A stretch of DNA of 64,000 nucleotides from Lineus longissimus (lineage: Eukaryota > Nemertea > Pilidiophora > Heteronemertea > Lineidae), in contig NC_088314.1 in the NCBI RefSeq assembly GCF_910592395.1, forward strand, positions 18,325,998 through 18,389,997. The letters run 5' to 3'. Both the position numbers and the translations under genes were made by a program. Positions 25,819-60,700 of the stretch are shown piece by piece; position 1 is the first letter of the stretch, and each line of letters begins with the position of its first letter. The notes under the pieces were generated by a model, which ran no database searches, was not told where the DNA came from, and worked only from the letters and a program-made list of their open reading frames with translations.

Positions 25819-28159
25819 CTATGTTGTCTTTTTCTTTACATGATATTGAGTAACAGCATATTTCCCTATCTTGAACTGCTGACAAATTCCTGGAAGAAAA
25901 GACATCATATCTTACTCATGATTTGACGCCACTAGCATTGTGACCCAACGAATCTGCTGGGGAGGGAGTCATTTGGGTACCTTTTAAGGGTTCATTTAAG
26001 AAAATAGTTTTTACACCAAAAAACAACAAATGAGGCAAATAACGAAGGCAAAACCAATCCTGTCTCGCGAGATACGGGACTTTTTGTGGACATAATCTGC
26101 TGGCTCTGTTCGCTGATAGCGTCGCAACTGCCTGTGGACAACAAGTGACGTTTTTGATATTAACCCTTTGACTTCCACCATAGCCGAATCTAACTCTTTT
26201 GTTTCAAGCTACAGTCCTTTAAAAACAGTTTATCTGAAAATTTTCAAATTGAAAACAAATTTGGCAGTTAAAGGGTTAAATACAGACAGTTTATCTGAAA
26301 ATTTTAAAATCAAAAACAAATTTGGCAGTTAAGGGTTAAATACAGACATAGTGTCAAGTACGCTCTACTTACATCCTTTCAATAAGTTCCTTCTCATCGA
26401 GTGCCTGCGGTAAGTCCCTCTTGTTACCTAAGACTAACACTGGGATACCTTGTAACTGCGGTTTGTCTAATAGATTATGAAGTTCGTTCCTAGAGGCCTC
26501 GATTTTATCATGATCAGCTGCATCCACCATGTATCTGCAAAGACAATTATTTCAGTTGTCGTAATCTGCTCGATGTAGATGTGAAAGTCTCTGGTGACCT
26601 GACACCAGCCAATGTGCTTCAGACTTGCTCCAGGATGAAGAACTGAGATGAAACTGGCCAAGGGACACCACCCGTGGCCCAACTCTCTGGGACAGCCGAA
26701 TTTGTTGCCAAAATGGACTGACAGTCACGCAGATTTGTGTCACACAGCCAAGTTCTTGAGGACAAACGGAGTGAAAGTTTGACCAGTCGAACGCAAAGAA
26801 GAAAAAGAAGAAGATGATGAAGAAGAAGAAAGTAATTTCACCTCCTACACAACTCCCAACACTTACACAATGGCATTGACTCCTCTGCAGTAACGCTCCC
26901 ACATACTTCTGAATCGTGGCTGACCACCAATATCCCAAAGCTAAAACAGATTTTTAGATTGAAGTTTTAGGTGCGAGAGCCTGGACCAATGATATGGATG
27001 TTACTCATCATTTTTTAGAGAAGAATGGCGGGGATAACACTTCAAACATTACAATTAAGAATTTTGACAGGGGACAGCAAGGCAAAATTTGAGGGCAAAG
27101 CAAATCTATTTCAAAAGGGGCAATGTGTTTTGTAAAAGTTTTATCATCATAACACAGGCACCATGGCAAAAATGCTGTCAGTCACAGAAGTTTTTCTCTG
27201 CAATCTGATGATCTGACTTACATGACCATTCAGGATTTTCTGGGCGTAAAGCTTACCTTAATTGTGACATTTCCCTTAGAGATTTTTCTCATATTGAACC
27301 CTACTGTTGGAATCATGTCTTCACTGAACTGTCCAGACTGAAATAATACAACACATCATCACAATAAATTTTGAAATATATATAATCATTACCAAAAAAA
27401 TTTAAGTGAAGACACAGCCATAGCTCACAAACTTGTCCATAGCTATCCTGAGGAAGAAGGCCAAGACAGATTGGACATCAATTTCATTAAGAATGGGAAA
27501 GAGTGTTGGAGGGAGAGGATGATGGAAGGCCAAGGGCAACAGTACAGCAACAGTGACCAGGGACAAGGACTGACTTCAAACCACGGTCTGAGATGTCAAG
27601 GTGGATGTTTGCTGTATAAGTTGTGCAAATTCACTGACATCAGACAAGTCAGGTGGCGTGCGGATTGAACGCAGGGCAAGGTGGTCCAGAGGCAGAGTGC
27701 ACAACCACTAATCCCAACAAGTGAGTTAATTTTTTTCATTGGGAGGATCTTTAAACTGGCATCTTTTCTGTCACATATAGGCCTACGCATGCGTTGAATC
27801 AGTACAATTATTTTGGGAAGGAGACAAAGGGAAATTACTTTCACTATTTCAGAAATCATTCAACTCAGCACCATCGTACTAACATTACAAATACATTCAT
27901 CTAAGTATGATGATGACTCATTTTGACTGCCCCCAGTAGCCAGTAGGCAGGTCAAAATCCATATAGAAAACCGACATGCATTATGCAGTGCATTGCACAG
28001 TTTTGTACAGGAAGGATGGGGCTTCATTTTGCTCACCGCAATAACATTGACAAATGTTGTCTTTCCGGAATATTGGAGACCCACTAATGTGAGTTCCATC
28101 TCTTCTTTCCAAAATAGACTCTTGAACCAATCAAGCATTCGTTGAAATAGCGAAAGCAT
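25819..28159 (-). CDS. ARL8: ARL8 Arf-like small GTPase (lysosomal); last exon not located
   Basis: Five coding exons on the minus strand: 28159-28037, 27337-27257, 26940-26867, 26534-26373, 25889-25819, with donor/acceptor signals and matching phases; 170 residues plus one base. It starts [20 protein letters not shown], the amphipathic N-terminus typical of ARL8 (N-terminally acetylated rather than myristoylated). G1 is GLQYSGKT, G3 is WDIGGQ and G4 is NKRD. The length up to DNI compares with 186 residues in vertebrate ARL8; the missing C-terminal 16 or so residues should lie further left. ARL8 sits on the lysosome surface, recruits SKIP/kinesin-1 and HOPS, and drives lysosome movement and fusion. 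Exon 5 ends ATA-G before GTGAG; reading through gives a short alternative tail ending at a stop about 30 bp on. It is head to head with cathepsin C. Confidence 0.93.
26215..26345 (+). repeat. Two-copy tandem repeat in ARL8 intron
   Basis: 'cagtttatctgaaaatttt' and 'aaaacaaatttggcagtta' occur twice, about 66 bp apart, in the intron between ARL8 exons 4 and 5. Confidence 0.8.
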
Positions 28160-28483: not shown

Positions 28484-31400
28484 ATGGCAGGCGGCTCTGT
28501 TACTTTTTGTATTTCTCTCCTTTTCCTCGGTTTTCTGGGGGTTACAAATGCCGACACCCCGGCTAACTGCACGTATATGGACATGCTAGGAACATGGTCC
28601 TTTTCTATGTGCTCTGGTGGACATGACAACACAATAAACTGCACAAGAATGGGTAAGTTGCCGAGGCCTATTTTCATCATCTGCTCTTTTTAATTGTTCA
28701 TGTCATGTGTTGGACCATGCACTCCTCCTGCACTGCACAGCTAGCTCTGCTGGATGTAAAATGCGGGCATATTTGTAAAGCCTGCTGACAAGAGTGACCT
28801 TTTTGAAACTGCAAGAGGGTAACTGCTGATCATCCACCATGAACCACAGATCAGATCTGTGATCTACAGCTCATGCACGTGACGTTGGCCATTGCCCCGT
28901 CGTTGGCAGGCTTGGAGATATGTTAACAAAAGGGTGGGGCAGGGCTAGGAAAAGGGCTTGGGGTGGGCATGGGAGGTGGGTGGGGGATGTGATCAGGTGC
29001 ATGGGGGGGGGGGGGTAATTGGCCATCTTCGGGTGACTAAAAACAGCACAGGGTCCTGTTTGATCAAGCACTGAACATATTCCTTGTACAAGCATGAATA
29101 GTTTTGATGTACTGTGAGAAGGGAGAGACCCCTATTGGTGGCTTTATGTAACTTTATCTTGTCTACCTACCTGCTGCTAAAGAGCCCCTTTAAGGTAGAA
29201 AAAATGGTTCTAATTCTATCATTTCTCTGCAGGACTGATCTCCCAGAAGATCACTGTGACCTTGATGTACCCGGATGTTGCCCAAGATGCTTATGGAAAC
29301 CAAGGGTTCTGGACACTTATCTACAATCAGGTAAGACGTCACTCTACATCAGATTTCAAGCCAGATTTCATTAAGAACTTTGTTACTGACATTCACATTG
29401 CCAAGATGCTTTTGGTTACTGTTCTATACTACTGGTTGAGGAGAGAGTCACTAGACCAATAAACCAGTTGGCGCCTAACCATAGGCACATAAAAAATGCT
29501 CAGCCTGCCGTGGAGGAGGAATACTCAATAAACATTGAACTGGGAAGATATAGAAATCTACCAGTGGAAAGGCGTACTTGTCCAGTGTGTAACAATGGCA
29601 TTGAGAGTGAGGTCCACTTTCTTTGTGTGTGCCCTTTGTATGCTGTCAGTAGAAGACATTTGTATAGCAAAATCGACATTGTTGTACCAAGTGACGATGA
29701 GGAGAGACTCCAGATTATGTTAACCAAGGGCGAATTTGCCAAAGAAGTTGCAAATTTTTTGATTCGGGCATATGAGATGAGAAATGGGCAGTAAGAACTT
29801 GAAACGACATCTCACAACTCGTATGCCCGAACAACTGTCTCATAAGCCTTAAGGCTGGCTATTTGTATAAATAAATAGGTGACAATAAACAAATAATATA
29901 ATACTCCCGGAAGTATAACACCTCCGAGTGCAGAGTATGGCATCACATGACACCATCTGATCATCATACTCGATAATTTGAATACCGATCCTGAATCCAC
30001 AAACAACTCAACTCAGTACAGTTATGAAAATGTCATGGGGGGTGTAATATAATATCATTGACAAAAAAAGATGTGTTTCTTTTGGATGATTTTGCATCGT
30101 GTTAAGAAAATTGTTTTTATTAGGGCTTTGAAGTTGTCATCAATGGAAGGAAATTTTTTGCCTTCTCAAAATACGAAGGGACTGGAGAGCATGTGACAAG
30201 CTTCTGTAACGACACTTTGCCGGGATGGTCGCACAACCTGCTGGGAAGAGACTGGGGATGTTTCCATGCCAAGAAAATCCAGGCTGTAGCTGCGAAAGTC
30301 CACCAACCATTTGTGACTGATCCGAAGTAAGTACGGGATGAATTGAGTCATTTGAAAATTAGGCTGTTTTGCCAAAGGATTATACACGTACAACAATACA
30401 AATCTATACTAGCCAGACTTTTGAGATCCATACCATTTTCTAGTAGGATCTCTCGCACATTTTTTTACAGCCATTTTGTGTTCTCGACCGCCCTTTTCGC
30501 GTCATTTGTCTGTTATTCCTAAGCTTTTGTTTATTCTATTTGGCAGACGCACGGCTAATTTCCGCTACAGAGTGAACCATGATTTCATCAAGCAGATTAA
30601 CAACGTCCAGAGTTCGTGGAAAGCCGCGGCTTATGATGAATACAACCAGATGACCATTGAAGACATGATCAAGAAAGCTGGAGGACGTGCTTCAAAGATT
30701 CAGGGGTAGGTATGGAATAGTTTTGGGTGGAGTAATGTGCAATTTAATGCTGTCGGTGTATAGCCGATAAGAAGCATGCCTGAATGATATTGAAACACCC
30801 TGTATAAAAAGAATGTAATCAATAGACTCTTCTCCTTGGGTGTATAGTCCGGTATGCTTGAACACAGTGTTTCTAGCGGGGGGGGGGGGGGGTCATTTGG
30901 AGGGGCACTTTCCAAAAATTCAATTTTCACTTTTGGAAAAAGGTTTGTATTACTTCTTTTTCAGTGTTCGAATTTGTGAGATGCAATTTATATAAAAAAT
31001 TAGACTAAATTTGATAACTGTTTTTCATCACAGTGTCAATACCGGTAAATGATTTTGTCACAGGTCAAGTCTTTTATGCCTAACAACAAATGTATGAATA
31101 CTTTGACCTAATTTGATAGAGATGTCCATCACATGACACAAAGGTACTTCAATTGTTGTTTACACGAGGCATTGGTGCAGGCCTGTGGAGTTCAATGATC
31201 TGTTTAAAACAAGCTGGGGTTGCCCATTACCTGTATCTTGTTTTGGTATGAAAATATGGGAACAGGCGGCACTGTATCTTGTTTTGGCACACTCCTAACC
31301 AAATACCTCGCTTCCCATTTGAAATGATATAAAACTCTTGAAAGAAAGTATTTTATTCAGTCATTCATTTTGTGGTCGATCATGTCGATATGTCGTCTTA

Positions 31401-34400
31401 TGCATGGATTAATATTCTTTCTAAGACTTGTCTTTATCAATTCTTGGCATTAGGGATAAGAGTACGTCACTGTTACATCACATGGGGGTCAATAGGCCTA
31501 AACTAGCAAACGGCAAATAAAGGAAATTTAAGTTTTTTCAAAATAATTTAGAGAAATTGTTCTGTTGAAAATGACCCCCTCAATAGTTTTTTTGACCTAA
31601 AAAATTAACGGGCCCAAAAAGTCATTTCAAAGTCCCGAAAAAATATTTTAAAGACCTATAGTTCTCCCTGGAAGAGTGTGTCTCCATCATTGTTTTCTGT
31701 TTTTTAAGGGTGGCCACTTTTAACTAAAATACCAACGTGTGCTCCAGACAGCCCCCTCTAGGTCACTGAAACTGCCCCTTTTGGGTCACTGAGAGACTGG
31801 CCACATGGCCAAACAGTGCATCAATGGAGACAAAGCTTTTGGTATCAAGGGGGACACAAACAAGAGACAGGAGCCTGGTTTAGTAGAGACATAGGCCTAA
31901 TTCTGTAGTATAGGAATTAAAAGAAAACCAAACGCTATACAGAAAAAGAAGAAGATCTTTAATATCCTTACCAAGAGATGATATATTGTCGTAACGTTTT
32001 TCCTCTGCAGTAATTTGCCTCGCCCAGCACCAGTGACTGAAGAACTGAAAGCATCAGTTGAGACGCTGCCTGAGTCGTTTGACTGGAGGGATATGAACGG
32101 ACAGGATTTCGTGTCCCCTGTCAGGAACCAGGGTAAGTTGAAAATCTATCTTCATCTGTTTGTTATAGTTGAACCAGGGTAAGTTGAGATCTATCATTCG
32201 TTTGGTATAGTTGAACCAAGGTAAGTTGAAAATCTATCAACTGTTTGGTATAGTTGAACCAGGGTAAGTTGAGAATCTATCAACTGTTTGGTATAGTTGA
32301 ACCAGAGTTAGTTGAGAATCTATCAGCTGTTTGGTATAGTTGAACCAGAGTTAGTTGAGAATCTATCAGCTGTTTGGTGTAGTTGAACCAGAGTTAGTTG
32401 AGAATCTATCAACTGTTTGGTATAGTTGAACCAGAGTTAGTTGAGAATCTATCAGCTGTTTGGTATAGTTGAACCAGAGTTAGTTGAGAATCTATCAACT
32501 GTTTGGTATAGTTGAACCAAAGTTAGTTGAGAATCTATCAACTGTTTTGTATAGTTGAACCAGGGTAAGTTGAGAATCTAACATCTGTTTGGTATAGTTG
32601 AACCAGGGTTAGTTGAGAATCTATCAACTGTTTGGTCTAGTTGAACCAGGGTAAATTGAGAATCTATCAACTGTTTGGTATAGTTGAACCAGGGTTAGTT
32701 GAGAATCTATCAACTGTTCGGTATAGTTGAATCAGGGTTAGTTGAGAATCTATCAACTGTTTGGTATAGTTGAACCAGAGTTAGTCTAGAATCTATCAAC
32801 TGTTTGGTATAGTTGTACCAGAGTTAGTTGAGAATCTATCAACTGTTTGGTATAGTTGAACCACTCTCAGTGGACAACTCTGATGTCTTTGCCAAGGCAA
32901 GCAAAAGACCCATTAGAAAAGAAATTAAAACGCAAGCGAAAATTTCCCAGTTTACACAGTGATATCATATTCATTTTCCAGCATCCTGTGGAAGTTGCTA
33001 TGCCTTTGCGTCTTTGGCCATGAACGAATGCCGTCTGCGCGTGATGACCAACAATACTGTCCAAGTCACTTTCTCCACTCAGGATATTGTTGAGTGCAGT
33101 CCTTATTCACAAGGTGGGTATACAGTACCGGTAGAACCTCTCTATTAAAGACACCCTTTAGACTGACAATTGCTGTCCATGATAGAGAGGTGTCCTGATT
33201 AGAGGGGTCAAATTGAATGGAAACAACCAAATTTTAACCAAAACTAGTTTCCTAAAAAGAGATGGTGTCCTTAATAGTAAGGTGTTCGCTAAGGGAGGTT
33301 CCACTGTACATGATCCCTTGGACATGACTGAATGATGTTGTGAACGGTGTAGCAAAGAATTGGAAGGGCAGGGAGTTTAAAAATGAGCAAAGAAAATGAC
33401 AGGGTGGACTGAGAAGGGGCAGGATTGGTGGCCTTCTGTTATAGAAAATGCATTAGCTGTTCTGAAAATATCCTTATACCCAAGATACCTGTAAATGAAT
33501 GATTGATTTTTTATCTTTTATTCTTACTTGTAGGTTGTGCTGGAGGTTTTCCCTACCTCATCGGAGGCAAATATGCTGAGGACTTTGGGCTTGTTGAGGA
33601 GAAGTGCAACCCATATACAGGCAAGGATGGGGCGTGCTCAACTGACAAGAAATGCAAGCGGCATTACTCGACTAATTATCGCTATGTCGGGGGTTACTAT
33701 GGCGCGTAAGTATTCTTGTGGGAGGAATTTTCCCTTAAAGGTGTACACCGTTCGTACTTATTCTTGGGTCAAAAAATAGAAATGCATTTATACACAATGC
33801 TGTAGTGTAGTTATCATGCATGCAAATTTGCTGAAACTTGGTAAGTATAGTATTTGTGTCCCTGTCGACACAACGGCAATGTTTGAATATATGTTCAGTA
33901 CATATTTCAGCAATTGGAATTTTCCAATTCAATTACAAATTTCAAATTTTTAACGAACGGCGTAGGCCTTTAAAGGACAACTTTTCCACGAGGTGATGTC
34001 ACAACGTTTTATCTTCGTTACCACTTAAGCGCTTAGCAAATCAGCGATTTTCCTTTTGCAGGTGGTGATATATTTGATAACCTAAAGGCCACATGTTTTT
34101 TATTTCTTGGTTTACGGGAAGAGCTTTTAAAAATGTATGGTCGGGTGGTCGAAATAAAATCAAAAATAAAAATAACCCAAATAGCTATGTATGATCGGAA
34201 GAAATAAAATTACCCAAATACTGCTGGAATCAAAGTTCACTTTTTTTCAGAACAAGGCGCAATGTCTTAGTCGGGGCTATTTCCCTCATCTAGATGGCTG
34301 ATAAGTTGTGAAAGTGCACAAACATTGGTTATCACACTGCTCTATGCAGTGGATTTTATTTTATTTCTCATCATTTTATCTAATTATGATGGGTCGGGTG

Positions 34401-35755
34401 GAAAATAAAATAAAAAATCGATGATTTTCAGATTTTATTTTTTTTCCAAAATCCCCAAAAAGCAAGTCAGTCAGTCCCGTAAACCAAGAAATAAAAAACA
34501 TGTGGCCTAACAATCAACCCTGTCTGATTTAAATTTCAGCTGCAATGAACAGCAGATGATCAAGTCGCTCATCCACGGCGGGCCAGTCGCTGTAGCATTC
34601 CAAGTCTACAGCGACTTCATGCAGTATCGGTCGGGAATTTACCATCATACATTCCTTCAGGACAAGTTCAACCCGTTTGAACTGACAAACCACGCTGTTC
34701 TCCTGGTCGGTTACGGTGCGGACGCAGCTAGCGGGGAGAAATACTGGATCGTCAAAAACAGTTGGGGCACCACCTGGGGGGAGTCGGGTTACTTCCGAAT
34801 CAGGCGTGGTCATGACGAGTGTGCTATCGAGAGCATCTCCGTCGAATCCTTCCCCATGCTGTGATGTAACGATTTGACCTAAGTGACTGGCTTCTCAGTT
34901 ACACTGAAAACACACTTTTTAGGGGTGTTGGGGTCAAAATTTGGGGCTTCCAATTTTGGGAGTCAAAATTTTAAAAATTATTATTTTTTGTATTTTGTCC
35001 CTCCTAAAGCATTTTCTGGAGGTTAAAGCAGCCAAATATGCTCCTAAACACCTTTAAATGATATAAAAATATTATAAATTAAGTAAGTCTTATGATTGCG
35101 CAAAAAAGACCAGACTGATTTTTGGCGCGAAAGACCGATGTTTGGTGCGAACATGATGCAATCAGTTGTAAAAAAGGTTTCATTAGGTATTTTTTTTCGC
35201 CTCTGCATCTGAACTCGTCATTTCGGTACTGGTAAATAAAAATTTTTTTTTCCCATTCCAAGAAAATGTGCGGATTTGAGGTTGGAAGACTGACACAGAA
35301 ATTGGTATTAATCAAAGCATTTTGTTTTACAGTTTTAGACAGCTGAAGAAATTGGCCAAAAAATTCAGAAAATGCGCTCAATTTGAATAATTTCCGCACT
35401 CGTCTCAGTTCTCTGTCTTCGTTCCTCTCGTTCCAGATGTAACGAAGCGGTGATGCGGCGCGCTTTAGTAAACGACGGCCCCATTGCCGTATCGTTCCAA
35501 GTATACCATGACTTCATGGCTTATAAGTCCGGTATCTATCGCCACACCGGTTTAAACGATCGTTTCAATCCGTGGGAGATAACAAATCACGTAGTCGTGG
35601 TCGTCGGGTACGGAACTGAGGACGGAACAAATTATTGGACGGTTAAGAATAGTTGGGGTCCTTCCTGGGGCGAGGATGGATTCTTTAAGATCGTCAGAGG
35701 CGCTGATGAGTGCTCGATTGAGAGTATTGCAGTTGAATCATTCCCGATGTTATAA
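28484..35755 (+). CDS. CTSC: Cathepsin C (dipeptidyl-peptidase I), with alternative last exons
   Basis: Exons 28484-28652, 29233-29330, 30124-30326, 30547-30705, 32011-32132, 32982-33113, 33534-33705, then either 34540-34864 or 35437-35755; all phases match, giving 459 or 457 residues (human 463). Residues 1-23 are a signal peptide (cleavage after VTNA likely). The exclusion domain follows (about 24-140; it blocks the active-site cleft so that only dipeptides are removed), then the propeptide. The papain-fold domain starts near LPESFDWR and has the catalytic Cys in ASCGSCYAF (exon 6), [10 protein letters not shown] (exon 7), and His and Asn in the last exon. Cathepsin C is a tetrameric lysosomal aminopeptidase that activates granule serine proteases and degrades proteins; Cl- binding is known in the family. 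Introns 5-7 hold a minisatellite and several MITEs. The duplicated last exon is described separately. Confidence 0.95.
28990..29190 (+). repeat. Dispersed repeat also found at 410-615
   Basis: Shares 'taatttggccatcttc.ggtgac', 'tattc.t.gtacaag' and 'gagacccctattggtg'. Intronic in cathepsin C. A G-rich run of about 12 G lies at its start (near 29003). Confidence 0.7.
29465..29882 (+). mobile_element. 5'-truncated non-LTR retrotransposon (LINE) remnant
   Basis: The ORF to the stop at 29794 reads like the C-terminus of LINE reverse transcriptases of marine animals: a short lead, then [20 protein letters not shown] and a Cys-His cluster ([13 protein letters not shown]). A tail follows, ending near 'aaataaataggtgac'. 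It sits in cathepsin C intron 2, same strand. Not a host exon: no splice acceptor fits the cathepsin C frame and the family has no such segment. Confidence 0.75.
30720..32010. other. Cathepsin C intron 4, nothing recognised
   Basis: 1.3 kb of AT-rich intron. A run of 13 G is at about 30879-30891. No coding or repeat structure beyond that was identified. Confidence 0.5.
32133..32868 (+). repeat. 43-bp minisatellite derived from a 5' splice site, about 17 copies
   Basis: The unit is 'gttgaaccagggttagttga' plus 'gaatctatcaactgtttggtata'. It starts at the donor of cathepsin C exon 5 (AACCAGG|GTAAGTTG); every unit repeats the exon-end-plus-donor motif AACCAG.GT.AGTTG, in about a third of units as an intact GTAAGTTG. 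See findings. Confidence 0.95.
33127..33312 (-). mobile_element. Pogo-like MITE in cathepsin C intron 6
   Basis: Reverse copy ending GGGAGGTTCCACTGTACA and beginning at about GGTAGAACCTCTCTATTAAA; the same family as 1313-1553. Confidence 0.8.
33735..33975 (+). mobile_element. MITE family C, copy C2
   Basis: Begins TTAAAGGTGTACACCGTTCG and ends ACGAACGGCGTAGGCCTTTA, so the ends are inverse complements over about 20 bp. Related to 8811-9053 and 38930-39115. Begins 30 bp after the donor of cathepsin C exon 7. Confidence 0.82.
34086..34508. mobile_element. MITE with 35-bp perfect inverted ends, just before exon 8a
   Basis: Left end AGGCCACATGTTTTTTATTT then 'cttggtttacggga'; the right end 34474-34508 is the exact inverse. 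Length 423 bp. The right end lies 31 bp upstream of the cathepsin C exon 8a coding boundary, so only that short stretch carries the native pyrimidine tract. No second copy was seen in the window. Confidence 0.88.
34540..34864 (+). CDS. CTSC: Cathepsin C terminal exon 8a
   Basis: Follows exon 7 in phase (GC|C, giving Ala-Cys-Asn-Glu). Encodes [10 protein letters not shown], then [12 protein letters not shown] with the catalytic His, IVKNSWG with the catalytic Asn, DECAIES and the stop. Acceptor 'gatttaaatttcag'. It is closer to the usual cathepsin C sequence than 8b, for example keeping the two-residue-longer loop DAASGEK before YWIVKNSWG. Confidence 0.9.
35437..35755 (+). CDS. CTSC: Cathepsin C terminal exon 8b
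   Basis: Second full terminal exon, also joining exon 7 in phase (GC|A, again Ala-Cys-Asn-Glu). Acceptor 'cctctcgttccag' has a better pyrimidine tract than 8a. Encodes [22 protein letters not shown] with His, TVKNSWG with Asn, DECSIES and the stop. By eye about two thirds of residues match 8a; both copies keep all catalytic and cysteine positions, and neither has a stop or frameshift, which argues for selection on both. Confidence 0.88.
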
Positions 35756-36069: not shown

Positions 36070-36406
36070 TTAAAGTGAAACTATGATGTGATTTACAACT
36101 TTGCGGAAATACGTCCGTTTTTAATTGTTGATCACAAATGTAAAGCTCAAATTTTTCATTTTTGATTAGATTTATTATAAAATCGCTGAATGTAAACCAC
36201 CGCGACCGCAAAAATGTTCATGTTGTGACGTCATCAACGAAAACAGCATCGAAGCGAGCCGTCCGGGCGGGATTAAACCATCAATTTCTAGAAAATGTGC
36301 ATTTCGATTCGAAAACCTTACCGATTTATGAGAAAGTGACGTAGTCATTTGTCAAAAACAGCTAAAACATTATATAGTGAAATTTGACACGAGTAACCCT
36401 TTAAAA
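36070..36406 (+). mobile_element. MITE family A, copy A3
   Basis: Same element as 10051-10380. Starts TTAAAGTGAAACTATGATG and ends GAGTAACCCTTTAAA. Keeps TGACGTCA. Lies downstream of cathepsin C. Confidence 0.85.
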
Positions 36407-37331
36407 GTACGCTGAATCGCTGGTCGTACGAGATCCCATTTAATAGTAGATTAAGAAGTCTGTGATTATCATTATGTGCTGGCCTGGGGTCTTAAATATT
36501 TATAAGTTTAACAAAAATTCGGCCTTATGTTTCTTATAAGTACGTGTACTTGCTGTATATCATCTTTTTTAGGGGCCAATTCTTCCAATCTGTATGGTGC
36601 TGTAGTTTCAAAACCATCAATGTGCTTTCAAAATTCAAATGTTCACCAGTATTTATTATTTGTGCAGAAACAGCTTCAGGGAACTTTGCACAATGTGCAA
36701 ATAATCATCATTCCTTCAGTTAGTCTTTATACTTCCATTGGGACACAGGCGACTGAATCAAGGGTCAGGAAGGGGTTAAAAGATTGTTAAATGTCCATGA
36801 ATGAAGGGTTAAGGTAGAAAACAGAGAAGGAATCCACAGAGGTTCCGTCAGGAAGAAATTTCAGCATTTTTATCACTTTACAACTTCACCTCCCTGTACA
36901 TCAATGCACTACAGATGTACAGGGGGTGAACTTCTGAAGTGGAAATTTCCTGCCTTTCAGTCTCTTCTGATTTCTTGCTACCTCTTCTGCTAAAACCCTT
37001 TTACATTGTACAATGTTGTGACCCCTTACTGACACTTGATTCAGTGGCCTGTGTTTGGATTTTTCAACCTTCGATAAGATTTCGATGTATCTTCTAAAAA
37101 AAGTCGATTCCAAAGTCCTGAAGTGTTGTCATTTCTAAAATGTGCTTTAGTGTGCTTGTGCAATGATGGGGTCTTAAATATAGCATTTGTAATGTTCCCA
37201 ATATTTTGAAATAAAGGAATAACTTGATAGGATTTGCTGTGTCTGTTTTTCTTGTCATTGTGTATCATGTGAAGCTGTGTGCCGCAGCGACCTCCTGCAG
37301 CCACAATCAGTCCTTTGCAATACAGGGAGGA
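36407..37331. other. Intergenic sequence between cathepsin C and RBM17
   Basis: No gene recognised; the short ORFs show no features. Confidence 0.45.
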
Positions 37332-37699
37332 GACTGTCAATGTTTTAATTTTGAGTTAGATCCAAAATATTGTTACCTTAGACAAAGTTTTCACCATTTT
37401 CTCCAAATGGCATCATCAGGTCTGATGATTTCCTGTAGATGGACGCACTGGAAATCTGAAGTTCTGGCTGTTACTTCTGGGGCCTCCGCCTAGTATTATG
37501 ACAGCCTTATCAAGCCCAGGACCCAAACGGGGGACCCTAGGCGGAGGCCCCAGAAGTAACAGCCAGAACTTCAGATTTCCAGTGCTGCCATCTACAGGAA
37601 ATCATCAGACCTGATGATGCCATTTGGAGAAAATGGTGAAAACTTTGTCTAAGGTAACAATATTTTGGATCTAACTCAAAATTAAAACATTGACAATCT
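37332..37699. mobile_element. Foldback element with about 162-bp inverted arms
   Basis: Arms 37332-37493 and 37537-37699 are near-perfect inverse complements (GACTGTCAATGTTTTAATTT...GGCCTCCGCCTAG), with a 43-bp spacer. The outer flanks differ. No coding capacity; the ORF 37224-37493 runs into the arm by chance. Confidence 0.9.
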
Positions 37700-45713: not shown

Positions 45714-48700
45714 AACAATGAACCGTCTGCTGAAGAGGATTCTTCACAAATACTTTGGAGGTAAATTTTAAGAGATACAGAGCTATTTTACGTTATTCTT
45801 GGTGTGACGGGGCACAATTAACAGTGTCCATTATCATCCGACATTTATGTTCAAATCATATCATCTTATATATAGTTAGTTTTATACCAGTTAAATGAGA
45901 CTTCATTTAACTCAATGTCATATAGTATACTTAGGTTAGTTAGTTCACTTTTTACCATAACGTGTCAGGATGTTGTTCTCACTAACAACCATCCCAACAG
46001 GACACAAGGTATAAGGAAGCTATCATATATTCTAAAACTTCTAAGAAACTCCGGATTGGTACCAGTCGGTGACAGGTTTGGAGTGGTGCGTGGGCGTTTT
46101 AAGCCTATGAGATGATCAGCAAGAGGGAGAGTCTGGCACAGGAAGTTAACTTTTCCTGTCTCTGCCAGTTACAGTTTCTGGGAAATTGTGGAGTCATTCT
46201 CACATGGTCCTAAGATATTTAGTTGGGGAACAAGGGCCAAACATCACTTGCGTCTTGATCTCTTGCGAGGCAAGACCGTTGTTTAAAGAGAACTCATCAT
46301 TAGATTAGATCCAATTTATGGAATTTGGTGAGATCATTCAGGAGATTCCAGTATGCTCTTATGTAGACCAGGAGCGAGAGAAAGATTGGTTCAGGAGAAT
46401 TTACATGTCATTGTAAAGGTAGGTGAATTGAGTTACTTCATCTTAATTCCGATTTGTTCTATTATATTATGTCTTTCAGTGCTTTGCCCAAGTATGGTCA
46501 AGATCGCCAGGCCCCATATCTCACTGCAACTCTCTTAAATTCACTCCATTTCTGATGCACCTGTTTTTATTTTACAATTGCTTAAAGGCGTAAATTTCAT
46601 TACCGTATGAGTGTGACGGCATGGTGCTATGAAAATGATCCAAGATCACTGAATAGGATTTAAGTTGTGATTTCTTGTGACCCTTTCATTGATGATAATT
46701 GCTCTCAGAGGCATGCATGTTCACACATTTTACTGTCGAGGGAGAGCTTGTTTATCAGATGTTTCGGGAAGAAATGAGATAACTTTATTGTGTATTTTAT
46801 CTATGAGCTAATTCACGTTAGTAAGATAAATATGTAACATTTAGGACTTAATGACTTGAAGCCAGTTTGGTTATCAAAGTAGTGATATTCCGTTGGTTAT
46901 CTTTTTGTAGGAATAGAGGACCGCGTGATTGGTCAAAGGAAATAGACTGTGGAAAGGAGTATCCCACGTCTATGGTGAGTTTATTTCAGGAATTGTTCAC
47001 ACAATCTGAATATGGGCTCATTATCTTACAAACTGATATTTGAGATGGCTTAGTATTAATTTCTAGGAAAGTTATGATTGTAATAATGATGTGATTATTA
47101 TGATTTAAAGGTACTAAATGATTCGTGATTTGGATGCATTGATTCATGAGCCCATGAGGAAACTATGTTTAAGCATTGTTTAAGTCTTGTCTTGTGTTTA
47201 GATCAATAACTGATTGGAAGTGGAATTGACATTAATTATGAATTAATATCAATGTTCAGTATGTTCTAAGGTTATTTGTGCTGTGTAACTTTGACAGTGT
47301 TGAGTCACCAAGTAATTGATTTGAGATAGTTAGGTAGTAGAGTTTGCATAAGGTCTTAATTTTAATGTTTTACTCACAATCTGTGTTTTGTATTACAGGG
47401 ATCGTAAGGTGACCTGTCATTGCCCTTTTTCTTTCTTCTTTGTTTTTGTTCGGTTCTTTTGGTTGCGTGTGTAAACGTGTATATAACATGCTCCAGAATA
47501 TGCTAGTTGAATAAATATACCATATCCGGAAAGAATCTAGCCTTACTTTAATTCTGCTTGGCTATAAATGGCGTTGTCGACAGCAGGATTTGGGTTATTT
47601 GTGAAAATTGAGCATAGAGCATGTACACAGTTTACAAAAGGGTAATGACAGAGGTTGAGAACTGATGAGGCATGAGCACAGTGCTGCTAAGACGGATGTT
47701 TCCAGGAAGACTATCCTAGAGGTGACACGTGTCGGTGATGTTGTGACAACCTACTTAGGGATGACTGCAGCAGAACTTGATGGAGTGGAGCCGGATCAAA
47801 CATTCCAGGAACAATTAACAAGTGCTGAAGTGACATTATTTACATCATATGAACTATTTTAAGACTGTGGCTTATAAATAGACTTGATGTTGTTATATCC
47901 GATTGCTGAGGTTGATTTTGTTGCGTCTATACGACACATGCCATGGGACTGTGAGTTGTGCTCATCATTCTAGGGTCAACGTGAGGTTACTGGGCCACAA
48001 TCCTTGTTTTGTTTTGGTTCTGTGCATATTATCTTTCCAGTGTTTAGGTTAAGTTGCAGTGAGATTTGAGGATGGCAGACTTACAAGACCTGAGTGAAGA
48101 CCAACTGAAGCAGAAGATTGCTGACCTGAGGGCTGACCTGACAGCAGCGAAGCTAAATGAAGCAAATGCAGTTGGGAGCGTCCGTGAGCTTAGGGGTGAG
48201 TCCAAAGCCTTAAAGGAAACTGTAGATAAGCTTAAAGGTAAGGATACTGTATATGTGGGGAGGGACCGAAAGCTTGAGAAGTTGAGGGGGGCACCAGTGG
48301 CCAGTAAAGACCCAGAAGTAGAAGAGTGGGTCAGAGATGCCCAGGGCATCATAGAGTCCAGGAAACTGAAAGGGCAAGATGCCATTAACTTTGTAACTGA
48401 CCATTTGGCTGGCGACGCCCGTGTGGAAGTGGATAGTAGGGGGAAGATCGATGATGTCAAAGATCTCTTCAAGATTTTGAGGAATGTCTTTGACATTGCC
48501 GATTCTTTGCCTCAACTGAGGCGTAAGTATTATGCGAGGTTGCAGGCGGAGGAGGAGTCTGTGGTCCAATATTCCCATGCGTTGGCGAGAATTCACCAAC
48601 GCATGGAGATGCTGGACTCCGCGCTGAAAGCCACTAAGGAGGAGGCCCTTAGGGCACAGCTCGCGGAAGGGTTTAAAGACCCTCAACTCCGGCGAGAAGC

Positions 48701-51700
48701 CCTTCGCTGGATCCGCGAGAAGAACGGCAGCTTTTTCGAGTTGCGAGACTGGGCAACAGAGTGGGTCCGCCAGGGTGAGGGCAGTGATCTAAAGGTAAAG
48801 GCCAAAGTTAGGGAACATCAGGCAGAACCAGCCCTGATGGAAATGCTCAAGGAACAGAATGTTATCTTGAAGGAGCAGGTGAAGGCTCAACAGGAGTTGG
48901 CAAAACTCATTGCAGGAATGAATGGGCCAACTAGTAAAGGGCAGAAATATGACCAACGGGGACGGGCCTGTTTCGAGTGCGGCAGCCTGGATCACCTAAT
49001 TAAGGACTGTCCAGATGCACAGAAGAAAGCCAAGGCTAAGAAAAATACGGGTAAGCCCAAAGCGAAGACAAATGAACAGGCGGCCACAGGGGCGTTAAAC
49101 TAGTTCGAGCCCCTGCTGAGAGCCGAGCAGCGGGCGATTTAAGAGGCTCTGTTCTTGCCAAGGCAATTGGCAAGTGCCCGGAAGCCGATATTCAGGTGGG
49201 GGGCGTGAGTGTCCGGTGTTTATTAGACACTGGGGCCCAGGTAAGTACCTTGACAGAGAGTTTCTTCAAGGAAACTCTCAAGGGTCAGGTAAGGGTTCTG
49301 GATACGTCTTCCTACCTGAAGATTACCGCTGCCAATGGCCTGCGTATCCCTTACGTTGGGTATGTTGAATTAGATATTGTAGTGCATGGAAGAACATTTG
49401 AGAAAATGGGTTTCCTTATTGTCAAGGATACTCCAAGCATTAGGAAGAAGGTTGTGCCAGGTATTTTAGGCAGCAACATATTGCGGTTGTTGAATGATAG
49501 TTTTCAGGGTCAACAATTAGACACTGATTGGGATTCAGTGTTACATTTATACAGTCATTGTGCCGTAGGTGACCTACCACCGGCGGTAGATGCAGACGAC
49601 CATGGATTAATCGGTCAGGTGAGAAACGCTAGTTCTGAACCCCTGCTTTTGCCAGCTGGCACAAAGAGGATCATCAAAGCTAGCGCCCCTTTCCCAAAAA
49701 GGGGTACCTCGTACTGTGCCTTAGTAGAAGGCATACCATCAGAAGACTGCTCGCTCCCAAAGGGACTAGTAGTAGCAGCTTCGTATTCCATGGTCATTGA
49801 CGGCCAGACCTGGGTTCAAGTAGCCAACTTTGGGGAAGAAGATGCCTACATCCCAGGTAAGTGTTTATTAGGAAATTTATTGTTGGGGAAAGTACCCTCA
49901 GCTCCCATGAACGTAGAGGTAATGGAAGTCTCTGCGAATGAGGTCAAGGTTGGGAGACAGTATGACCCGGAACCGACACCAAGCAAAGCTACCGCAGAGA
50001 AGGTAGCCCGACTGATGGAAACCATGCATATTGGTGAGTTGACTAGATCCGAAAGGAAGAGATTTGAGCAGTTGCTTCAGCGGTTTCCTGATCTATTCAG
50101 TGATGGTGATCATGACTTAGGGTACTGTGACAAAGTCAAGCATAAAATTGTACTAACTGATGATAAGCCTATCAAGGTCCCTCATAGGCGTATTCCACCT
50201 CATCAACTGCAGGCTGTTAAGGAATACCTGGAGACTCAGCTTCAGGCAGGTATTATTAGGCCTAGTACATCAGCTTATGCTTCAGCGATAGTTTTGGTTC
50301 GCAAGCCGGACGGTAAAATGAGAGTTTGCGGGGATTTTAGATTGTTGAACGCAAAGACAGTCAAAGATGCCCAACCCTTAGTTAGAATACCAGAGGCCTT
50401 GGAGGCATTGTCTGGCTCAAAGTTCTTTTGTACTTTAGATTTAGCTCACGGTTTTCTACAATGTGGAATCGAGGAGGAGGATATCCCGAAGACTGCTTTT
50501 CGGGCTGGGTTTGCAGCCCTGTATGAATACACCCGTATGCCGATGGGGCTCTGTAATAGCCCTGCTACGTTCTCCAGACTGATGCAAACTTGTCTTGGAG
50601 ATCAGAATCTGGTCTCTCTTGTAGTGTATTTAGACGACATTTTGATCATGGGGAAAACCTTTGATCAAACCCTGGAGAGGCTAGAAATGGTTTTCACGAG
50701 GTTGCAAAGCTTTGGCCTGAAAATCAAACCAAGTAAGTGCCATTTCTTTCTTGCAGAAGTTAACTTTCTTGGTCATGTAGTCTCAGAGAGAGGCATAGCA
50801 ACTAATCCTGAGAAAATTGCAGCTATCAGAGACTGGAAAGTCCCTGAAACCGAGAAGGAGTTGAGGTCATTTTTAGGGTTAGCCTCCTATTATCGCAGGT
50901 TTATCAAAGGATTTGCCACCATGGCTGCACCCCTTCATGTTCTTTTGGGTGGTCCCAAAGGAAAAGACAAGACCAAAGGTAAGAGGTTAAGAGACGAGGA
51001 ATTTCGGGCTCAGTGGACTCCTGAATGTACAGAGGCATTCAGAAAATTACAGGATAGCCTGTGCACCTCCCCAGTACTGGGATACCCAAGATTCGGCGAA
51101 AGTTTCCTAGTGGAAACTGACGGTTCGTACAGGGGTTTGGGCGCTGTCCTGAGCCAAATCCAAGACGGTAAGCAAGTAGTGATAGCGTATGCTAGTCGTA
51201 GCCTTAAGCCAGCCGAAAGGAATGACATGAATTACAGCTCAATGAAATTAGAATTGTTAGCTCTAAAGTGGGCTGTGACTGAGAAGTTTAGAGAGTACCT
51301 TTTAGGCGGGACATTTCAGGTATTGGTAGACAGCAACCCGCTGGCCTACCTACAGACAGCTAAGCTGAATGCTACAGAGATGAGATGGGTCGCACAATTG
51401 GCTCAGTTTGACTTTTCAATCAAGTATAGGCCGGGTAAGAACAATGGAGCAGCAGATGCTCTCAGCCGTTACCACCCCGTACCTGCATTGGACTTCAAGT
51501 TGCTGACTGAAAGTGAGGTAAGTTCACATATGTCAGAGATTGTCAAAAGTACACCCATCCCAGATTACCTAAGGTCAGCTCTCCAAGATGATATAGTGGA
51601 AGTATCCTTGGAAAGCCATGAGGCAGTGTTACCCCCTGAGACCAAGGCACAGGGAACACTACCATCCTATTCCACAGATGACTTACAAAAACTCCAGTCC

Positions 51701-54700
51701 AGTGACAACAGTATTGGTCCATTCAAGGATATCTGGGCCAAGGGTATCAAACCCACAGGTAGAATTCTCATCAAACTACCCAAACCGGTAAGAAAATTGG
51801 CTAGGGAGTGGGATAGAATTCGGAAATTCAAGGGTGTCCTCTACCGTCAGAGGAAAGAGAAAGGTGAGATAATGCAACAACTAATACTACCAGAGTGTCT
51901 CAGGGACAAAGTATTCACGATGTTGCATAATGACTCAGGACACCAAGGGACTGAACGGACAACTTACTTGGTAAGATCACGATTTTTCTGGCCTGGTTTA
52001 GCTAATGATATCGCTGAGAGATGCAAATCTTGTCAGCGCTGTATTATCTGCAAGGCCCAGCAGAAGGTAAAACCTGCCATGGGACATTTGCTAGCTAAAA
52101 AGCCGTTGGAAGTCTTGGCAATAGACTTCACCTTTTTAGAGCCAGCCACAGATGGGCGGGAAAATGTCCTTGTGATGACAGATGTGTTCACCAAATGGAC
52201 ACAGGCAATTCCAACGCGGGACCAGACAGCCAAAACAGTCGCTAAGGTATTGGTTAATGATTGGTTCTTGAAGTACGGTGTCCCCAGGCGGATACACAGC
52301 GATCAAGGTAGGTGCTTTGAGTCTAAGGTCATCCAACAGTTATGCCAGCTGTATGGCATAACTAAGAGCAAAACTACCCCATATCATCCCGAGGGTAATT
52401 CTCAGGCAGAAAGATTCAACCGGACTATGCATGATCTTCTAAGGTCATTACCTGCTGAGAAGAAGAGACGATGGCCTCAGCACCTCCCTGAGTTAGTATT
52501 TGCATACAATGCGGCACCACATCAATCTACCGGGTACAGCCCATATTTTCTGTTCTTTGGTCATGATCCTCGCTTGCCCATTGATCAGTTACTCCCCTCG
52601 GTTGAGGACACTGATCATCAGGTGGATTATGATGAATGGATCACCCTCCATCATACTCGTATGAAGGAAGCCCAGGTATTGGCTAGGACTCGGTTGGAAA
52701 AGGAAGCACTTAAGCGAGAGCGCCTCCGTCCTGTGAAGGAGGACAAACTAGAGGTAGGTTCCAGAGTCTTCTTAAAGAACTTAGGTGTCCGTGGACGCAA
52801 TAAAATGCAAGACCGATGGAATAGTGTTCCATATCAGGTAATAGGTAAACCGGATCCAAACAATGAGGTTTACAGCGTTGAACCCCTCGATGGTTCTGGC
52901 CCAGCCAAAACAATGAATAGGGTTAACTTGCTTAGATCTGACAGGTTAGTAGTCCAAGAGTTGCCCGAACAGCCTGATGAAGAGCAGGCCACTGACAGGC
53001 CTGACCCAATTATGACCAGGTCTCGTGCCGAGGCACGCGACAATCAGGTCACTGAAAGTGACAGGTCGGAATCAGACTCTGAGGATGATGACATAGTTGT
53101 ATGGGAGGAGCCCGGGGAAGTATTAGAAGCTCCACCTCAGGTGGAAATTAATATTCCAGTTCCAGCTCCAACCCCAAGACGGTCAGGCAGAGCAACTGCA
53201 GGTAGGCACCGTAATATGCATCATTTACCTAAGTCAAGTGTCCACACAACAGTGCGGGAAATGACTGAAATCAACTCTGATTCAGGTACAAGTATGAGTG
53301 AGCAAACTATAGCGGACTTTGCCAAGGCACAGCTTATGCTGGCCAAGTTGTTATTAAGGAATTCAGTTCTTTAATATTTAGCAGTTGTTGTTGTTGTGGG
53401 CAACAACAAAGTCAGTTGGGTGGTATGTGACGGGGCACAATTAACAGTGTCCATTATCATCCGACATTTATGTTCAAATCATATCATCTTATATATAGTT
53501 AGTTTTATACCAGTTAAATGAGACTTCATTTAACTCAATGTCATATAGTATACTTAGGTTAGTTAGTTCACTTTTTACCATAACGTGTCAGGATGTTGTT
53601 CTCACTAACAACCATCCCAACAGGACACAAGGTATAAGGAAGCTATCATATATTCTAAAACTTCTAAGAAACTCCGGATTGGTACCAGTCGGTGACAGGT
53701 TTGGAGTGGTGCGTGGGCGTTTTAAGCCTATGAGATGATCAGCAAGAGGGAGAGTCTGGCACAGGAAGTTAACTTTTCCTGTCTCTGCCAGTTACAGTTT
53801 CTGGGAAATTGTGGAGTCATTCTCACATGGTCCTAAGATATTTAGTTGGGGAACAAGGGCCAAACATCACTTGCGTCTTGATCTCTTGCGAGGCAAGACC
53901 GTTGTTTAAAGAGAACTCATCATTAGATTAGATCCAATTTATGGAATTTGGTGAGATCATTCAGGAGATTCCAGTATGCTCTTATGTAGACCAGGAGCGA
54001 GAGAAAGATTGGTTCAGGAGAATTTACATGTCATTGTAAAGGTAGGTGAATTGAGTTACTTCATCTTAATTCCGATTTGTTCTATTATATTATGTCTTTC
54101 AGTGCTTTGCCCAAGTATGGTCAAGATCGCCAGGCCCCATATCTCACTGCAACTCTCTTAAATTCACTCCATTTCTGATGCACCTGTTTTTATTTTACAA
54201 TTGCTTAAAGGCGTAAATTTCATTACCGTATGAGTGTGACGGCATGGTGCTATGAAAATGATCCAAGATCACTGAATAGGATTTAAGTTGTGATTTCTTG
54301 TGACCCTTTCATTGATGATAATTGCTCTCAGAGGCATGCATGTTCACACATTTTACTGTCGAGGGAGAGCTTGTTTATCAGATGTTTCGGGAAGAAATGA
54401 GATAACTTTATTGTGTATTTTATCTATGAGCTAATTCACGTTAGTAAGATAAATATGTAACATTTAGGACTTAATGACTTGAAGCCAGTTTGGTTATCAA
54501 AGTAGTGATATTCCGTTGGTTATCTTTTTGTAGGAATAGAGGACCGCGTGATTGGTCAAAGGAAATAGACTGTGGAAAGGAGTATCCCACGTCTATGGTG
54601 AGTTTATTTCAGGAATTGTTCACACAATCTGAATATGGGCTCATTATCTTACAAACTGATATTTGAGATGGCTTAGTATTAATTTCTAGGAAAGTTATGA

Positions 54701-57700: not shown

Positions 57701-60700
57701 CAGATTATTAGCTCACCTCTGGGGAACTTATATGATACCGTGGCATCCGTCATCGTCGTCCGTCGTCGTCTGTTAGCATTCAAGTTCTAAATCAGACTGA
57801 TGGTGCCTATGGTCAACCCTTGAGTTTCTTTCAATGCTGCTTACTCTTTCAGGCTTCAAATGTAACTTGAATAGGGCCTGTTCTCACGGGAAGTATCCAT
57901 ATGCCGTGGTGTCGGGTTTTGGTATAGACTTTGGACCGATAATCTGCTTCAATGGAAAATAGTAAGTAAAGAATTATGCACCGCTCAATGTGAACCCAGT
58001 ACCCCCCATTCACATTGATTCAGCGTTCGACACCTGAATTAATTTTGTTTGTATTTCAATTTCAATTTCAGTTACGTTAGTCATGAGAAGAAGAACTGGG
58101 AACGAGGTTTAAATATGGTCATCGTTGATGGTGAGTCCACCTTTACACCTTGTCATTTTTTGCTAGTTTATTTTGCGGACATTTTGTCAAGGCAAGCTGT
58201 TGAAGTTATTTTCAATTTGAGTCGCCAGAAATGGAAGTATGTTACCAGGAAATGACATCTCTTGAGACATTATTTTATGGGATTTGCCAGCAGAGTTATG
58301 CATTTTGAGCGGCGAAAAATACTTCAGGGGGGGGGGTCAGCTATCCCTAAAAACAAAACCAAAAGAATAGAGGAGGTGTCCGCTAAGAATGGTTCCACTG
58401 TTGTTGATCTTTAGGATGTTCTATTGGGAGCTCTTTCTCTTTGAGGTTTTTCAGACCGGCAATTTATCTATTTTCAGACGTCACCAAGAAGGTGACAGAA
58501 ATCAAACATTTTGATACATATCTCGACGGTAAGTAGGAAGTTGCGTCGTCACTGTCGCCCCACCCTGCCCTTGCCTTCATTGTCATAATCGTCACGGCTT
58601 CATGATCCAAATTGCGACCTTGCCTCTTGGTTTACAGCAATTTGAATGTCAGCTGTTTGTGGTGCCTGGATGATTTTTTAGCTCGGCTGACAAAGTCAGC
58701 GAAGCTGGTCATATTACTAAGGGAATGGTGTCCGTCCTTCCTGCCATCCATCCATGTCAATTTTGGGCATTTTGTAACCGTAAGACCTAGGCACTTTGTT
58801 GACGCTGCTAAATTAGGAGTAGCCCAAGGGGAACTCAGAAACCAAAAATCAGCGCGATCCGACCTACATTCGGCGAATGAGGTCATCGGGAAGTTTAAAC
58901 TTCTTTCCTTTATACCTCGGTCCGCAGAGGAAATATTGTTTTCAAATCTGGCCGAATATTTTTTAATAATTTTTCATTTTGACTTGTTGTGATTTATTAT
59001 TTGGTGAATGTTTGTTCAAGTTTGAGATGATAGATAAGTTTGTTGACAGCTCGGTTAACTTGCTCTTCAGATGTTTTTCACTGAGAGTGACCTGATCACA
59101 CAGTGTTTATTAGGCCATGGGAATTATTAATCCTGTTTACCGTCCACCTCCCGCATGGGTTCTGAGCGAACATGAAATATTTTCATTATTTTAAAAAAAA
59201 TCTATTTATTTTATTGTTGCCATCATTTTTTTATTGAAATAATCTTTCCAGTGGTTCATCTTTACCTTAAATGATTGAAAAACACAGTAAAAACTTGGCA
59301 GGGTAGGCTCTTCATCATAATAATGACATTTTTTCAATGCCTCATGTTGATGACCGACCTGATTTCCATTTTTTTGGAACTTGCTGAATCGCGTGTTTTG
59401 ACCAGTAAATCAGACTGTAAACCGATAATGAATAATGAAAAATGAAAAAAAGCCTCATCATCTTTTTAAATCACTCAGACGGTAAACAGGATTAATCATT
59501 CCTATGGCCTTACTGCTGTGAAAGTGGTCACACATGATTTCACCACCCAACGGTTTTGCTATTTTCGGTAATTCATTCTTCGTTCTTCCAGATGCTAGTA
59601 TGGTGCGCTATCTGAAGCTGGTTATTCCCGACAATCACATAATCCTGGTGGCGAGTTCAGACGAAATGACCTACAAGTAAGTGACCAAGATCAGGGTTAG
59701 CCATTTCACTTCGAGGGACTGGATTATTGCATTATTGCTGCAAATGTCACCGTAAAAAGACGAAGTCAACTATATAGGAACTCAAAATTGTTGGGGGGAG
59801 GGGTACAGGTTAACATTGACAGCTGCATTGCCCATATTCATCATCATCATCATCATCATCATTACCGGCATTGTAACCTATTGGATTTTTGCCGGAGGTA
59901 TGGAGTCCACTATAGGCTTCTGTCCACCTGTGTGGGATCTTTTACTTGCCCTGGCATAGACACTCAGGTACAAGGGACCACGGCTTTTAGTAGACCCTCG
60001 ACTATTTATTGCTTCCTCATTTCAGTTTACATGAAGACGCAAAAGGTTGGTTGATGAAGTACGGCAGTCAGGCGATCACCGGGGCGAAATTCCGCGATAA
60101 CTTTGTGATGATTGGACAGCGGGGTCTGACCCCGGGTGCAGCGGTTGAGCAACTTATTCACAGGAACGTGGAAGAGGAGTTTGCGCAGGTCGCTGAAATA
60201 AAAGGCTGCCTATCTGTCCCGAGTAAGTACAGTAGTGAGACCTCCTTTAGACACCTCTGTATTGAGGACCCCCTCTCTATCGAGGACACTGCATTTGATC
60301 CCAATGTCGTCGTTTCCATTGCATTTGACCTCTGTAATCAGGACATTTCCCATTTTAAAACTGAGATAATCTCCAGCAGATATGGGGTTTTGACTGCCCA
60401 TGGGCCATGCGCCTTTAACAGAAAATAAAATATCACCCTTTTTTCATATTGAGGAAATATATTCGTGATTGGACCCGCTATCCAAAGCATTAAATTGGTG
60501 CGGCCTAAAGGACGCTGTTCAAAACCTGATTTGTATCTTTTGTCTTTCTAGTGGGACCCCTCACTAGGATCGAGATCAGTAAACCGCAGATTGGTGACAA
60601 ATCCTCCATGGAGCCTGGCTGGGAGTTACCAAACTGCGGCCTGGAGCATCCGTGTGGTCCGAACACTTTCCCGGTTCACATCTTCACCGCAAAAGGAAGG

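Follow-up and report, generated by a model that had tools for sequence, protein, structure and literature searches.

Cathepsin C, or dipeptidyl peptidase I, is regarded as a single enzyme with a single, broad preference for dipeptides. This work concerns a stretch of 64,000 nucleotides from the ribbon worm Lineus longissimus (contig NC_088314.1, positions 18,325,998 to 18,389,997), which we call the window and number from its first letter. On its + strand lies a full cathepsin C gene, in which seven exons are shared and two, 8a and 8b, are candidates for the last. We believe it quite probable that this one gene makes two dipeptidyl peptidases through these alternative last exons, and that a recurrent two-state specificity switch is thereby held within a single gene.

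Several described systems come close to this layout. The swapped exon of CYP4F3 is an internal one. A single splice choice there shifts the substrate preference of the enzyme, which is the likeness to our case, though the enzyme is a cytochrome P450 (PMC7434440, in its available text). In mechanism the best parallel is coq-2, as described in helminths, annelids and molluscs, where alternative exons swap part of the enzyme core and exchange two residues adjoining the substrates, according to the same text. However, coq-2 is a prenyltransferase with internal, mutually exclusive exons and a tested function, whereas the Lineus gene encodes a predicted protease and would swap last exons that carry two catalytic residues. 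That text also describes independent origins of the mrp-1 alternative exons in several lineages, and it calls it rare for a single splice event to alter the catalytic core in this way. Paired cathepsin C genes in invertebrates give two forms per species as well (Varda and Novinec 2022, PMC8836896), but those forms are whole-gene paralogs and the main text does not contain the terms exon, isoform or splic. Several invertebrate cathepsin C pairs in our own alignment show the difference at residues 349 and 382 that is the subject of this work.

Human CTSC (3pdf, 1k3b) matches both Lineus products in its domains, its catalytic and chloride-site residues and Cys331. It differs in having one C-terminal half, which in 3pdf_A is of the A type (Ala349, Ala382). 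We take PDB entry 3pdf to be the human enzyme, and the last human exon presumably starts further upstream, at the position of the Lineus exon 6/7 junction. An earlier note on this DNA knew of no described cathepsin C with such a layout. Among the literature matches listed there is indeed none with exon duplication, alternative terminal exons, or invertebrate or amphioxus splice variants, but the layout itself seems to recur in other animals. What was already known is the sequence of exons 1-7 plus 8b, as an NCBI model; what is new is the coupled 349/382 difference between the two ends.

The argument starts at the end of exon 7 (33534..33705), which stops in phase 2 (GC/GTAAGT, with the slash at the exon border). 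Exon 8a (34540..34864) continues it as GC/C TGC AAT GAA and exon 8b (35437..35755) as GC/A TGT AAC GAA, so both complete Ala-Cys-Asn-Glu in frame, each after an AG and in the same phase. Both then run to a stop, TGA in 8a and TAA in 8b, with the TNH and VKNSWG motifs intact. They lie 572 bp apart, and the exon 7/8 junction falls between Lineus residues 352 and 353. The pyrimidine tract is modest at the 8a acceptor (11/17) and strong at the 8b acceptor (15/17). A polyadenylation hexamer lies 3' of each exon: an AATAAA at 35235..35240, upstream of 8b, is the candidate signal of an 8a transcript, and another at 37210..37215 is the candidate signal of an 8b transcript, with variant hexamers closer by at 36176 and 36272. 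The locus thus has two same-phase acceptors, each with its own stop. The earlier note had described the phase, the completed motif, the intact catalytic motifs and a divergence of about a third between the ends, along with a loop before the catalytic Asn two residues shorter in 8b, and our alignment bears out each of these.

The remaining exons complete the gene, and every intron border is GT/AG. Exon 1 (28484..28652) carries the start codon, the signal peptide and the start of the exclusion domain at Asp24, which is mature Asp1. Exons 2 (29233..29330) and 3 (30124..30326) carry the exclusion domain (PF08773), and exon 4 (30547..30705) the propeptide, as judged by alignment to 3pdf_A. The end of the propeptide and the start of the heavy chain, with Gln228 (human mature numbering, used for all catalytic and pocket residues), are in exon 5 (32011..32132), the catalytic Cys234 (CGSCYAF) is in exon 6 (32982..33113), and the chloride-site residues Phe278 and Tyr323 are in exon 7. 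The predicted products are 459 amino acids long with 8a and 457 with 8b. The 8b product is identical over all 457 residues to the NCBI record "dipeptidyl peptidase 1-like isoform X2 [Lineus longissimus]" (P0001), so a separate annotation had joined exon 7 to 8b. The 90% identity cluster of this record holds two member sequences on one contig (21,159,187 bp). The second member is presumably isoform X1 carrying 8a, since the name X2 implies an X1. The earlier note's reading, that one gene could make two dipeptidyl peptidases, is supported.

Both products keep the marks of a dipeptidyl peptidase I. Each has the exclusion domain (PF08773, expect value E 6.5e-43) followed by a papain-type catalytic domain (PF00112, E 9e-61 with 8b and 9.8e-62 with 8a). 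The best sequence match of the 8b product is cathepsin C 3pdf_A, to which its residues 24-456 align at E 1.1e-167; Asp24 aligns with residue 1 of that chain, the mature N-terminal Asp1, where the cut itself would be expected. Gln228, Cys234, His381, Asn403 and Trp405 are kept with either last exon, and the chloride site, lying in exon 7, is common to both. The swapped piece begins at Cys331, takes in the last part of the heavy chain and goes on through the light chain, where His381, Asn403 and Trp405 lie. The 8a codon for Cys331 (TGC, 34541..34543) is the first whole codon of the exon; the role of this residue is taken up in the available part of PMC8836896. Both ends keep Cys331 and the Asp that follows the human cleavage site between heavy and light chain, given as Leu-Arg/Asp371 in the accessible portion of PMC6801622. 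An AlphaFold model of the 8b product has a mean predicted local distance difference test score (pLDDT) of 85.4 and a predicted template modelling score (pTM) of 0.81, with residues 301-303 and 397-400 below 50. Its best PDB match is again 3pdf_A, with a template modelling score of 0.90 by target length and 0.70 by query length.

Aligned with MAFFT, 8a and 8b share 69 of 106 residues (65%; 70 of 107 counting the stop). Third codon positions are 34% identical, and fourfold sites at codons for the same residue agree at 4 of 24 against 6.3 expected from base composition. The Nei-Gojobori (NG86) nonsynonymous divergence (dN) is 0.29, with the synonymous divergence (dS) beyond estimation, a comparison which the earlier note had proposed. 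When 8b was block-shuffled its reading frame stayed open in 6 of 2000 cases. Neutral drift simulated to the observed third-position divergence left about 9% amino-acid identity and put a stop in 1990 of 2000 copies. The likeness of the two exons is thus well above chance, and neither resembles a pseudoexon. Synonymous saturation together with 65% protein identity means an old pair under constraint at the protein level. These sequences therefore argue that 8a and 8b have long been kept as protein code, and that they are neither an assembly duplicate nor a decaying copy. Recent gene conversion between them was considered and left no sign, the longest identical run being just 9 nucleotides.

Two other explanations of the locus can be judged from the same numbers. 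One is an assembly artefact, with two genes or haplotypes collapsed and a foreign last exon placed beside the gene; the earlier note had itself named collapsed separate genes as one of the things that would undo its claim. Copies with a third of their third positions identical are far too diverged for haplotypes or for a collapsed duplicate, neither the 572 bp between the exons nor 34060-34540 has a second copy in the window, and the NCBI record sits on a contig of 21.16 Mb. We regard an artefact as highly improbable. The other explanation sees in 8b (or 8a) what is left of a second cathepsin C gene in tandem, its first exons having been lost. Such a piece may enter some transcripts and yet have no function there. 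Whole-gene pairs with the 349/382 difference do seem to exist, for example in Elysia chlorotica (EGW08_017219, EGW08_017220) and Plakobranchus, each pair on same-size contigs. However, searching the window with both proteins (tblastn) gave no further convincing cathepsin C exon, the remaining matches having E of at least 0.12, so nothing else of a second copy is seen there. Saturated synonymous sites in a pair that has kept its protein identity, its catalytic residues and an open frame speak of long selection on both exons. Exon 8b could not work alone, because neither the catalytic Cys nor the exclusion domain is encoded in it. A tandem remnant seems to us quite unlikely, and alternative last exons of one gene the better account.

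The two ends differ at named active-site contacts. The earlier note had pointed to residues on the pocket side, and this can be sharpened to two: 8a has Ala349 (GCA, 34595..34597) and Ala382 (GCT, 34694..34696), and 8b has Ser349 (TCG, 35492..35494) and Val382 (GTA, 35591..35593). We call these the A-type and the S/V-type pocket. We take 349 and 382 to be the classical papain S2 positions 133 and 160. The S2 positions listed in the available text of PMC11242924 and PMC9860727 are 67, 68, 157 and 205, and do not include 133 or 160. In a docking study on 3PDF, the ten hydrophobic contacts of an inhibitor in the active pocket include Ala349, Val352, Ala382, Ile429, Phe278 and Pro279 (PMC8908036, as far as its text was available); of these six named contacts, 349 and 382 differ between 8a and 8b. 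We infer that, with Ser349 and Val382, the S2 pocket of the 8b enzyme would differ, and hence also its preference for the second residue of the substrate.

The comparison extends to relatives. We aligned 254 proteins, made up of 252 fetched relatives of at least 330 residues and both Lineus products. The relatives came from the best 120 of 432, of 2851 and of 1325 matches; P0001, being the 8b product, and four proteins below 330 residues were left out, as was P0123 from the comparison of cores with ends. Ends (the last ~107 residues) are usually more conserved than the cores: over 21,396 pairs among 208 proteins, core identity minus end identity has a mean of -0.153 with a standard deviation of 0.052. 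There are 224 pairs whose core identity reaches 0.78 or more; in eight of them the end falls behind the core in conservation by over 0.05, and the next gap is 0.029. These eight are the Lineus pair and seven cross-species pairs from four other lineages. The amphioxus pairs are Branchiostoma lanceolatum with B. belcheri X1 and with B. floridae x japonicum X1; the pulmonate snail pairs are Biomphalaria X2 with Lymnaea and with Physella X2; the starfish pair is Acanthaster X2 with Patiria X1; and the sea urchin pairs are Lytechinus variegatus X1 with L. pictus X2, and L. pictus X2 with Strongylocentrotus X1. The seven pairs have cores 80-91% identical and ends 71-78%. All eight differ at 382 as Ala against Val, compared with 10 of the 216 other close pairs, and all eight differ at 349 as Ala or Gly against Ser. 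The idea of a novelty confined to nemerteans was set aside because the same pattern appears in the four other lineages, and the layout with two last exons is probably not unique to Lineus.

This result also bears on a third explanation, that both exons are in use and differ in regulation, through the 3' untranslated regions or mRNA stability, while the proteins act alike. The predicted 3' ends are of unequal length (AATAAA at 35235 vs 37210), which fits. But selection on untranslated regions alone would not produce a change at 349 and 382 in every one of the eight close-core pairs, and we consider a purely regulatory difference unlikely.

Alternative ends are further suggested by where divergence jumps along the protein. 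An earlier scan for identity breaks without site rates left the snail positions unclear because the N-terminus varies most; adding site rates resolved the snails. Both amphioxus pairs jump at Lineus residues 345-368, with gains of 21.3 and 15.4 log-likelihood units, and the snail pairs at 347-376 (gain 14.7) and 345-364 (gain 9.0), so these breaks bracket the Lineus exon 7/8 junction. The starfish pair jumps at 221-369 (gain 8.0), an interval that takes in residue 353. The sea urchin pairs jump at 210-216 (45.9) and 206-214 (24.8), which is the Lineus exon 4/5 junction. Control pairs with the same end gain 0.8 in amphioxus, 3.3 in snails and 6.6 in urchins, the last at 73-129, and the other pairs, Polyodon/P0161, Potamilus, Mytilus and Haliotis, gain 1.3 to 3.3. 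On these protein comparisons, alternative ends in one gene would be the best explanation of the amphioxus and snail breaks.

A reverse pattern was seen as well. In P0024/P0060 (one member from the sponge Geodia), P0023/P0044 and P0006/P0027 the catalytic halves are much alike and the exclusion domains differ. The best break is at Lineus 156-158, the exon 3/4 junction (intervals 155-158, 149-198 and 57-165), and the exclusion domain may have been exchanged as a unit in these pairs.

The coupling of the two residues extends beyond the close pairs. Of the 68 rows with Val382 in the alignment, 66 carry Ser349. On a FastTree tree built with the 349 and 382 columns removed, 27 changes are required at 382. 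Supported branches supply 22 independent pairs: in about 15 of them 349 moved with 382, in none did it move against it, and in about 7 there was no difference at 349 (median p 6e-5). On this tree 349 and 382 appear to have moved together many times, a count that gene conversion could inflate. We also checked 24 pairs at these residues, the eight found by the identity criterion and 16 picked by hand (same species, on same-size contigs or near relatives). Fifteen of the 16 differ at both positions, and Potamilus differs at 382 only. Whole-gene pairs on the hand-picked list with the difference include Elysia, Plakobranchus, Arion, Candidula, Dreissena, Mya and others. Ala382 is found in 18 of 18 named jawed-vertebrate rows checked; among hagfish, Myxine has Val and Eptatretus has Ala.

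To judge between one origin and many, we built a tree of ends from 69 of the 208 rows, restricted to named species and dropping nine named rows (eight vertebrates and P0123), over 109 columns. The two forms group by lineage in amphioxus (support 98/89), in euthyneuran snails (100/97) and in starfish (98/81). This speaks for repeated origin or for conversion, although the signal comes from just 109 columns. The best tree splits the Val382 ends, and placing all 25 of them in one clade gives p 0.096 in the approximately unbiased (AU) test. Joining 8a and 8b as sisters gives 0.43, joining 8b with ten molluscan Val382 genes and Geodia gives 0.35, and joining it with the ends of B. lanceolatum, Physella and Lymnaea gives 0.23. 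The core tree joins Biomphalaria (Ala382) and Lymnaea (Val382) as sisters with support 95/91, within a clade of three pond snails at 100/100; the ends of the same three are apart in the best tree of ends, and keeping them together gives p 0.125. No AU test run on the ends rejects any grouping, a single exon-duplication clade included.

Our proposal for Lineus is as follows. Exon 7 would be spliced to 8a or to 8b, giving products with the same exclusion domain, Asp1, catalytic Cys and chloride site and with different His/Asn halves, so that the remainder of the cleft would differ. Judging from the signals, a transcript that takes 8a would end at the poly(A) signal at 35235, before 8b; if 8a is skipped, splicing would go to the pyrimidine-richer acceptor of 8b and give a transcript ending no later than the signal at 37210. 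The swap would change Ala349 to Ser and Ala382 to Val, and with them the S2 pocket and the preference for the second residue. The coupled difference in cross-species and whole-gene pairs suggests that this two-state switch is recurrent in animal cathepsin C. The broadest version of the idea we offer tentatively, as something a little short of an even chance. In it a switch between Ala/Gly349 with Ala382 and Ser349 with Val382 would have had many origins, being carried in ribbon worms, amphioxus, pulmonate snails and starfish by last exons that can be swapped, in sea urchins by a larger swapped catalytic half and elsewhere by paired genes, with jawed vertebrates keeping one state, so that splicing would set which dipeptides can be removed in the lysosome.

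Several observations weigh against this proposal. The use of both exons in Lineus is argued from an NCBI model and from conservation, "isoform X2" being the name of a model, and one of the two last exons may be used rarely. The predicted pocket role of 349 and 382 comes from a single docking paper (PMC8908036, in its available part), which is thin evidence. The coupling has exceptions, with Val382 lacking Ser349 in 2 of its 68 rows and Ser349 lacking Val382 in 41 of the 254. The ten other close pairs that differ at 382 mean that this change needs no exon swap. Clustering at 90% hides isoforms of the same species, so the case in other lineages is made from cross-species comparison and from names such as "isoform X1/X2". 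As for the breaks, those of the sea urchins at the exon 4/5 junction mean that the swapped piece is larger there, the starfish break stands without a same-end control, and the control intervals in amphioxus (49-434) and snails (57-382) are too wide to place a break and also cover residue 353. The Mytilus pair does not differ at 382, and its best break, a weak one, is at 360 (gain 2.9). Tandem whole genes recombining at introns could also give the same break pattern in other lineages.

We nevertheless believe the pair is worth attention. Two ends kept under long selection and differing at two coupled pocket residues hint at a need for two preferences in some animals. Should the parallel cases prove right, they would show, for a protease, the same two-residue solution being reached again and again by exon swapping and by gene duplication. 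The pair would also suggest candidate residues for substrate choice in human cathepsin C.

The introns of the gene have features of their own. Intron 7 contains a 423-bp element (34086..34508, + strand) with perfect 34-nucleotide inverted ends (34086-34119 and 34475-34508). It lies 31 nucleotides from exon 8a, beside a CTAAC candidate branch point, and is single-copy in the window; none of 300 block-shuffles of intron 7 holds even 20 nucleotides of such ends. The speculation that this inverted repeat forms a hairpin and acts as a splice switch was put aside: the repeat is real but probably the end of a transposon. A 43-bp minisatellite of 17 copies (32125-32863) begins at the exon 5 donor, and its unit repeats the splice-donor region (AACCAGGGTAAGTTGA and variants), so that copies of the 5' splice site follow one another along the intron. 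An inverted repeat (37331-37699, 374 columns, 90% identical), probably a fold-back element, lies a short way 3' of the AATAAA at 37210.

On the other side of the gene lies the first exon of an ARL8 small GTPase (28040-28159, - strand), of which 40 amino acids match ARL8A 4ile_A at 3.3e-19. The two genes are head to head with start codons 324 bp apart. ARL8 is, we assume, a lysosomal GTPase, and a candidate promoter common to two lysosomal genes is worth a look. Further along the + strand, a retrotransposon at 48063-53374 has a gag-like frame with a zinc knuckle and a pol frame of 1432 amino acids with protease, reverse transcriptase, RNase H and integrase, both frames being long and open; by its domain order we take it to be Ty3/Gypsy-like. 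An open frame at 59994-60425 (+ strand) has weak similarity to FAM3C (1.8e-4).

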